From positions 9,829,148 through 9,893,147 of the forward strand of contig NC_049994.1 in NCBI RefSeq assembly GCF_000003815.2: a stretch of 64,000 nucleotides of DNA, in the 5' to 3' direction. The stretch is from Branchiostoma floridae. Taxonomy: Eukaryota > Chordata > Leptocardii > Amphioxiformes > Branchiostomatidae. The position numbers and the translations under genes were made by a program. Below are positions 20,088 to 40,619 of the stretch, piece by piece. Below the pieces are notes generated by a model, which saw nothing but the letters and a program-made list of their open reading frames with translations, did not search any database and was not told the origin of the DNA. Numbering within the stretch: the stretch's first letter is position 1; the number at the start of each line of letters is the position of its first letter.

Positions 20088-21515
20088 TCAAGGTATGGCA
20101 CCGTTGCCTGCAGGTACACACCTGGAAAGAATAAGTTTACCCTCTGCCTCCAAGACGGTTCTGAATCTGGTGTAGGCGTGCTCGATGCACTCTGCTAAGG
20201 CGGTGGTGTAGCACCCGTACAACTCGTAGTGGGCCCTGGAGTTATAAAACAGGATGTATAGAATTGGTTAGATAGGTGCTTTTGGAACTACATAGTTCTC
20301 CTGAATGTAGTCTTTGGTTCACACTTTACAATTAGATATGCATGCAGTTCAATCTGAATAACAAGGTGTACATGTAATTAATAATGGTAAAAGATCATGC
20401 ATCTAGCCTATAATGTGTCTTTTCTGAATCAATTGCTGTATTTAATTTATTACCTGAAGGCTATATTTTGTGTACATGTATTTAGTTTACCAGGGAAGAT
20501 GTTTATTAGGCACTTTTTAATACTCCCTGTATTTGCCTTGAAGAATTGGAAGAGACGATTTAACATATACTCCATCTGCGCATCTTTTATGCATGTATTT
20601 CACTTTTCTATTGTCCCTACAAACAAGGAAAAACTCGATACTCACAGACAGAAAGCTCTATGCGATAGTTTCCCGCTTCTCCGGATCTTGTATGCCTGGT
20701 GTTGATACCTTGCGTAACAGGTGCTGAACTCCTCTGCAACGAATGGCGCACAGCCGAGGTCTGTACGAAAAGAAGTAGAGGGTCTGAGACAAATGTGATG
20801 GATGAAAATGGCCATTTTTGCAGACTTCTGAACTGGCAGTGTGTATTTTTTTTGGGTAGCGCCGACCCACGATTTTGTGAACGATATCTGTGAATGCTCG
20901 AATCGGGGTTCCATTCAAAAGTTATTAGGATACGAACCCCAACCTTGTGATCCAAAAGGAAATTGCTAAACATTAAATTATTGCATTGGCAGCATGGAAG
21001 GCGTAAAGACTAGTACATGTATCTACATTTCTTATTCAGCTTTACCAACAACGTTACCTTCTTGCTCCTCTGACTCTGGCACTATCTCTTCAACTGAAGC
21101 TGGCTCAACTGGTTTGGACTCAAAGACAACGATCGGCTCCCCTTTCTCAGCATCTGCAGGTGTAGAGACAATGCATTGGTAGGAAAGACATACTAGAATT
21201 TCTCGCCAGTAAAAGTAAAGTAATGCATATTGATATTGAGAAAGTCTTCAAAGAAATCTAATCCAGTGGTCAAGATTTCTAGGTACTTGATACCTCGTTG
21301 GAAACAAGGGCTCAGCAGGACAAGGGTTAAACATCAATCAAGTTAGAGAATAACGTGATGAAATGACCTGCATCTTCAGTTGGATCTACTTCTGTGCTGA
21401 GTCGACGTAACTCTGCCACTCCTATCACGTTGGTCTCATCCTCGCTCGCTTCCTGGCGTGTCTGCTCGTCAGGTTCCCCCTCCTCAGTTTCAACCTCCGA
21501 CACTATTTCCTGAGG
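20088..21515 (-). CDS. C-terminal exons of the mosaic gene, with Cys-containing tail
   Basis: Exons 21515-21368 and 21153-21058 taper off the acidic region. Exons 20760-20709 and 20235-20088 encode a compact tail with five cysteines: [51 protein letters not shown]. The 52-bp exon 20760-20709 was found from phase: the last exon needs a two-base carry-over (AG), and only this exon supplies it (TTTCGTACAG acceptor, AG|GTATCA donor). I do not recognise the tail as a named domain; its spacing suggests a small disulphide-linked helical module. Confidence 0.72.

Positions 21516-40619: not shown

Follow-up and report, generated by a model that had tools for sequence, protein, structure and literature searches.

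The stretch of lancelet DNA that we analyzed (the window) comprises 64,000 nucleotides of Branchiostoma floridae contig NC_049994.1, positions 9,829,148 to 9,893,147, and its minus strand contains a predicted gene of 20 exons that runs from an ATG at 40619 to a stop codon ending at 20088, in one open frame and with GT-AG borders throughout. The predicted product, with a mass of about 200 kDa, begins with a signal-peptide-like sequence, followed by MAM, CUB, H-lectin-like, LDLa and C-type lectin modules, an acidic tail, and a cysteine-containing C-terminal end. This module order, the single frame and both ends had been proposed in a preliminary description of the locus and are borne out by the 20-exon model, but the lengths given there (5328 nt and 1775 aa) are not; the spliced model is 5391 nt long and codes for 1796 aa with the exon 3 acceptor at 38134, earlier drafts having come to 5376 nt and then 5385 nt. 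Moving this acceptor from 38128 to 38134 raised it from the 62nd to the 97th percentile of all AG dinucleotides in the region, and the 63-nt difference from the length first proposed is probably a matter of splice-site choice.

In the 5385-nt model, 31 of 38 splice sites reach the 90th percentile or better in a generic splice score. Seven fall short: four acceptors, in exons 3 (since replaced), 8, 12 and 14, and three donors, in exons 10, 12 and 16, at the 75th, 79th and 79th percentiles respectively. Head and tail meet at the weak donor of exon 12. By codon score the frame used is better than the two other forward frames in all 20 exons. Exons of this gene for MAM, CUB, LDLa and the C-type lectin domain were part of the training set for this score, and the test is independent for exons 7, 8 and 13 to 20 alone, where ten of ten favour the frame used. 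Exon 7 is the sole exon of the 20 in which an antisense frame scores above the frame used (0.28 vs 0.21).

Modules of the predicted head

Exon 1 (40361-40619) carries the start codon, the signal-peptide-like N-terminus (score 2.87) and the start of the MAM module, the rest of which is encoded by exons 2 to 4 (38629-38466, 38134-38003 and 37708-37624) and which is recognized by Pfam with a whole-protein E value of 1.2e-30. A CUB module follows in exons 5 and 6 (37157-36944 and 35379-35252; whole-protein E 9.1e-22) as a phase 1-1 unit, and both MAM and CUB score far above their Pfam cut-offs. Its best PDB match is cubilin, and the heavy chain of enteropeptidase is also among the matches. Calcium-binding CUB modules use a ligand triad of Glu, Asp and Asp; in an alignment with cubilin, the Asp in the C..DY motif matches, the Glu is displaced by one position and Thr stands in place of the final Asp, such that one of the three acidic ligands is in register. 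The LDLa module is likewise a phase 1-1 unit and occupies exon 9 (27939-28061). It matches Ldl_recept_a with an E value of 2e-11 (44.3 bits against a cut-off of 24.1) and has the six cysteines and acidic cage that make up the LDLa motif, and its PDB matches include LRP2, VLDLR and LDLR.

The identity of the phase 1-1 module encoded by exons 7 and 8 (29409-29300 and 28720-28570) is unproven. Pfam H_lectin scores 13.4 bits here against a curated cut-off of 24 (E 0.089), and an unrelated DUF outscores it on the same 87 residues. In control searches none of eight shuffled sequences and not the one reversed sequence gave H_lectin, and one shuffle matched another family with an E value of 0.058. A phmmer search of the PDB with the 87 residues was empty at E up to 1, and NCBIfam gave a weak unrelated match alone (E 0.06). 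We thus treat the H-lectin label as no more than a lead to the nature of this putative module.

Open stretches in the neighbouring introns were considered as candidates for extra modules and rejected. A selection of ten on the minus strand of introns 5 and 6 (36210-29760) gave no credible Pfam match, with two of the ten matching unrelated families at E values of about 0.05, and a stretch in intron 1 (39691-39245) has no Pfam match.

The 5.8-kb intron 6 has nested within it, on the plus strand and thus opposite to the gene, a thioesterase-like open frame (31811-32620; 4HBT_2 1.2e-8, Acyl-ACP_TE_C 1.1e-4). It lacks the first half of the 4HBT_2 profile, and is thus likely to have upstream exons or to be a truncated copy. 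A tandem repeat at 34575-34949 has 2.3 copies of a 167-base unit, and this unit contains GGCAAAACTTTGAACGGAATGATTCC, which also occurs near 32610, where the nested thioesterase frame ends.

Exons 10 to 12 (27362-27224, 26981-26869 and 26648-26502) encode a domain that Pfam, PDB matches and paralogues all place in the C-type lectin fold (Lectin_C E 2.8e-18; 67.1 bits against a cut-off of 22.6). Sugar-binding C-type lectins have an EPN or QPD motif together with WND at calcium site 2; the domain here retains WND but has YPG in place of EPN or QPD. Among the matches listed, the six best-scoring lancelet paralogues outside the gene have QPD (three times), EPD, EPN and YPR at this place, and WND is retained in four of them, with WHD and WSD in the remaining two. 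Because of the YPG substitution the domain probably does not bind sugars by the usual calcium-dependent route. MAM, CUB and LDLa serve mostly in binding proteins, and the earlier suggestion of several glycan-binding heads is overstated, given the YPG motif, an H-lectin match below its cut-off, and the nature of the other modules; a collection of largely protein-binding modules is a more fitting description of the head than a series of lectins.

The C-type lectin domain is also split over three exons. Among the matches listed in a search of the same genome, the others all have at least 119 of the 132 domain residues in one frame, in a search that scored the best 150 of 997 candidates (three of them from the gene itself) by a ranking that favours unsplit exons. 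The domain may belong to an old lineage rather than being a recent recruit from single-exon stock.

The acidic tail and the C-terminal end

Exons 13 to 18 (25939-25727, 25170-24064, 23868-22777, 22522-21816, 21515-21368 and 21153-21058) encode a tail of 1121 residues, in agreement with the acidic Glu/Thr tail of some 1100 residues originally noted. It contains 394 Glu (35%), 128 Thr (11%) and 99 Asp (9%), with 5% Pro, 4% Gly and no Cys, and has a net charge of -439. There are no N-glycosylation sequons in the 1796-aa model. A rod bearing glycosaminoglycans, as in a proteoglycan, was considered and dropped because there is one Ser-Gly pair in the whole tail.

Duplication is evident in the tail at three scales: units of about 11 to 12 residues, a 102-base direct repeat in exon 14 (24600-24796, 91% matches), and a larger block that spans an exon end and part of the following intron. 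The first copy of this block (24520-24041) runs from the end of exon 14 into the start of intron 14, and the second (23200-22754) likewise from exon 15 into intron 15; the two are 84% identical over 483 aligned positions. The second copy ends in an assembly gap of N (22650-22753) within intron 15, and the end of intron 14 (23987-23869) is also matched in intron 15, with 72% identity over 119 positions. The duplicated exon ends have 14 differences in 91 codons, of which six are silent and eight are replacements, corresponding to dS of about 0.114 and dN of about 0.039. The dN/dS ratio of about 0.34 points to the tail being translated in the predicted frame, although gene conversion is also possible. 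As read from these repeats, the predicted tail grows by duplication of an exon end together with its intron.

The last two exons (19 and 20; 20760-20646 and 20235-20088, the latter including the stop codon), placed by open frame and splice sites, encode a C-terminal end of 87 aa that has six cysteines and corresponds to the cysteine tail of the preliminary description. It has no Pfam or NCBIfam match, and a PDB search returned a single chain at chance level (E 0.74). The idea that exons 19 and 20 encode two related three-cysteine repeats was rejected, as the alignment score was reached by 2246 of 5000 shuffles, and by 2327 of 5000 when the cysteines were held fixed.

Exon 20 is the least certain exon of the model. 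Its in-frame codon score (0.12) is the lowest of the 20, and a stop codon lies directly after the exon 19 donor, followed 125-200 bases further on by four poly-A signals (20521-20446). The 3' end is less sure for this reason, and the transcript could end right after exon 19 and leave exon 20 unused. We regard this as unlikely, if far from negligible, because exon 20 is open within a 59-codon stretch that supplies three more cysteines and its acceptor is good (96th percentile). Beyond the model stop codon the nearest poly-A signal is an ATTAAA at 19251, and the true 3' end may differ from that of the model.

Gene boundaries and exon phases

We consider it probable that one gene carries all of these modules, as predicted from the sequence. 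The chief alternative is that two or more genes have been run together, for example a secreted MAM-CUB-LDLa-C-type lectin protein ending after exon 12 and a separate acidic protein of exons 14 to 20 starting at an ATG at 25240, or else a product starting at 37254 (CUB onwards) or a small secreted cysteine protein of exons 19 and 20 starting at 20815. Several observations are consistent with such a division. Read-through past exon 12 ends at a stop 13 codons on, and the exon 12 donor is the weak one described above. In-frame ATGs are present upstream of exons 5, 6, 7, 14 and 19; the one at 37254 before exon 5 has a signal-peptide score of 2.41 and the one at 20815 before exon 19 a score of 2.0. 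Intron 13 also has signal-peptide-like ATGs at 25585 and 25579, although the frame that they open closes at 25469, short of exon 14. False fusions also have a precedent among lancelet gene models (PMC4967905), in that a Lectin_C plus fn2 model was found by Banyai and Patthy, according to the available text of their reports, to be two genes by ESTs (PMC4967905; PMC6071037).

Other observations argue against a division, and we judge it to be rather improbable. On the minus strand there is no AATAAA or ATTAAA between 27565 and 20521 (of which 104 bases of N are unreadable), an interval whose 3063 non-coding bases should contain about four at the density seen in the non-coding bases of the gene (19 in 14937), and there is none in intron 4. 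There is no in-frame ATG upstream of exon 13, and the start at 25240 lies below the signal-peptide threshold. In addition, the MAM/CUB, C-type lectin/tail and tail/Cys-end borders are all in phase 1 like the rest. The exon 1 ATG has the top signal-peptide score of the 15 candidates on the minus strand of the 21-kb gene region, but this score discriminates poorly and is weak evidence either way because such ATGs are about as dense elsewhere, with 46 in the whole minus strand of the window and 49 in the plus strand.

The phases of the introns are consistent with assembly of a single gene by exon shuffling. All six module borders (MAM/CUB, CUB/H-lectin-like, H-lectin-like/LDLa, LDLa/C-type lectin, C-type lectin/tail and tail/Cys end) are in phase 1, compared with two of the eight introns that interrupt folded modules (Fisher p 0.0097); when the five tail introns are added to the comparison the p value is 0.044. 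Because the splice sites and borders were chosen with the domains in view and not blind, this is support and not proof that the predicted gene is a class 1-1 shuffled mosaic. In the available text of a survey of lancelet exons, 51% of shuffled domain exons are 1-1 compared to about 28% of non-shuffled exons, and lancelet internal exons have more 1-1 phase combinations than those of the other species examined (PMC4284660). A second account, again as far as its available text goes, counts 300 B. floridae genes whose products combine a C-type lectin domain with further domains (PMC10140915). Against this background (PMC10140915; PMC4284660) the unusualness at first ascribed to the mosaic appears overstated, and the predicted protein, although it has no name, is of an ordinary shuffled lancelet type.

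In the same assembly (513431437 bases in 431 contigs), and at the sensitivity of the search used, the H-lectin-like module and the Cys end were each found as two exon matches at their own locus only, with E-value limits of 1 for the former and 0.001 for the latter. The MAM-CUB region, for which the best 136 of 511 candidates were scored, has at least 74 matches at E up to 1e-5, six of which are the gene's own exons, and among the matches listed the best one outside the gene is a CUB with 46% identity. No close paralogue of the gene is present among the matches listed in this same-genome search. No protein with this module order is named in the titles and abstract openings of the open-access articles that literature searches on the topic listed.

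Relatives and possible role

Several well-known systems share some of these features. Lecticans such as aggrecan and versican have a long polyanionic middle beside a C-type lectin domain, and an aggrecan domain is among the PDB matches here. They differ in that the charge here comes from Glu and Asp, that the heads come first and then the rod, and that a Pfam search of the 657-aa head, with E up to 1, finds no Link domain. Enteropeptidase-type mosaics combine LDLa, CUB and MAM in one chain, as does the predicted protein, but Pfam finds no protease domain in the head and, past the signal peptide, there is no window resembling a membrane anchor. To our knowledge lancelets have no mineral skeleton, and we know of no sea urchin spicule matrix protein with MAM, CUB or LDLa. 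Spicule matrix proteins are similarly secreted and combine a C-type lectin domain with acidic repeats, although from the available text on them those repeats are rich in Pro and Gly (PMC5460417), two residues that make up 5% and 4% of the tail described here. Closest in kind are the lancelet class 1-1 mosaics, which are also secreted and built of common promiscuous modules on phase 1-1 exons; as far as the available text on them goes (PMC10140915), none has this module order with a doubtful H-lectin module, a long acidic tail and a six-cysteine end.

Of the 19-residue windows of the model, the most hydrophobic fall in the signal peptide (mean 1.47) and in the C-type lectin domain core (1.43), and no membrane-anchor-like window is present beyond the signal peptide. 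The original proposal of a secreted protein is supported by this and by the signal-peptide-like start. Taking composition and modules together, we tentatively favour, at a little short of even confidence, a secreted, non-membrane mosaic protein from one gene that would serve as a polyanionic component of mucus or matrix. The folded head, with MAM, CUB, LDLa, the C-type lectin fold and one uncertain module, would bind proteins or glycoproteins at a surface; the tail would be extended by charge repulsion, holding water and calcium and spacing the heads apart; and the six-cysteine end might pair internally or link chains. The likeliest site would be a mucus layer, the gill or gut lining, or another apical matrix, where the protein could act as a hydrated spacer and as an adhesion or trapping protein.

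A secreted pattern-recognition protein is a second candidate, in which the heads would bind microbial glycans and the polyanionic tail would agglutinate or bridge. Lancelets do employ mosaics of similar build for recognition. Amphioxus ApeC proteins bind microbes, in the available text of one report (PMC8361754), and another, as far as its available text goes, describes a clade of lancelet proteins that combine fucolectin, CUB and APEC modules with two C-type lectin domains (PMC12373286). The latter resembles the predicted protein in having several recognition modules in one chain, but no APEC or fucolectin is present among the Pfam matches here. The YPG motif, the unproven H-lectin identity and the lack of close copies among the matches listed, the nearest being the CUB noted above, all speak against this reading and we consider it doubtful, the least favoured of the roles discussed. 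Microbe capture by a matrix or mucus protein is possible, probably without classical calcium-dependent sugar binding by the C-type lectin domain.

The matrix reading can be extended to a polypeptide 'proteoglycan', which we consider on balance unlikely: a single-copy gene with five heads, a Glu/Thr rod and a new six-cysteine module, in which a gene-encoded polyanion would replace glycosaminoglycan, the rod would lengthen by exon-intron duplication, and the C-type lectin domain would have turned from sugar to protein binding. If the locus yields one transcript, it offers a testable case of shuffled modules and exon duplication building a large chordate matrix-type protein, and also of a lectin fold that has lost the sugar motif typical of it; should the locus turn out to contain two genes, it would add to an already known problem of lancelet annotation, that of false domain fusions. 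Either outcome is a modest advance.

The rest of the window contains several other features. On the plus strand there is a RING plus B-box protein of the TRIM type (54915-56009; B-box 1.2e-8) and a cytochrome P450 fragment (56866-57930 (57927); Pfam p450 4.6e-7), which we take to resemble the lancelet CYP74-clan oxylipin enzymes; a CYP74-clan member from B. belcheri is reportedly the subject of a published paper. A 153-base repeat in three copies (43994-44465, 89% matches) is open on both strands, and its minus-strand frame has no Pfam match. A long low-complexity array of the (AGAC)n type (47186-47666) is open in several frames. The minus strand also carries an end exon of GKAP/DLGAP (63161-63517; 3.2e-10) and a tRNA-Leu (anticodon aag) predicted by ARAGORN at 45912-46009, which at 98 bases perhaps contains an intron.
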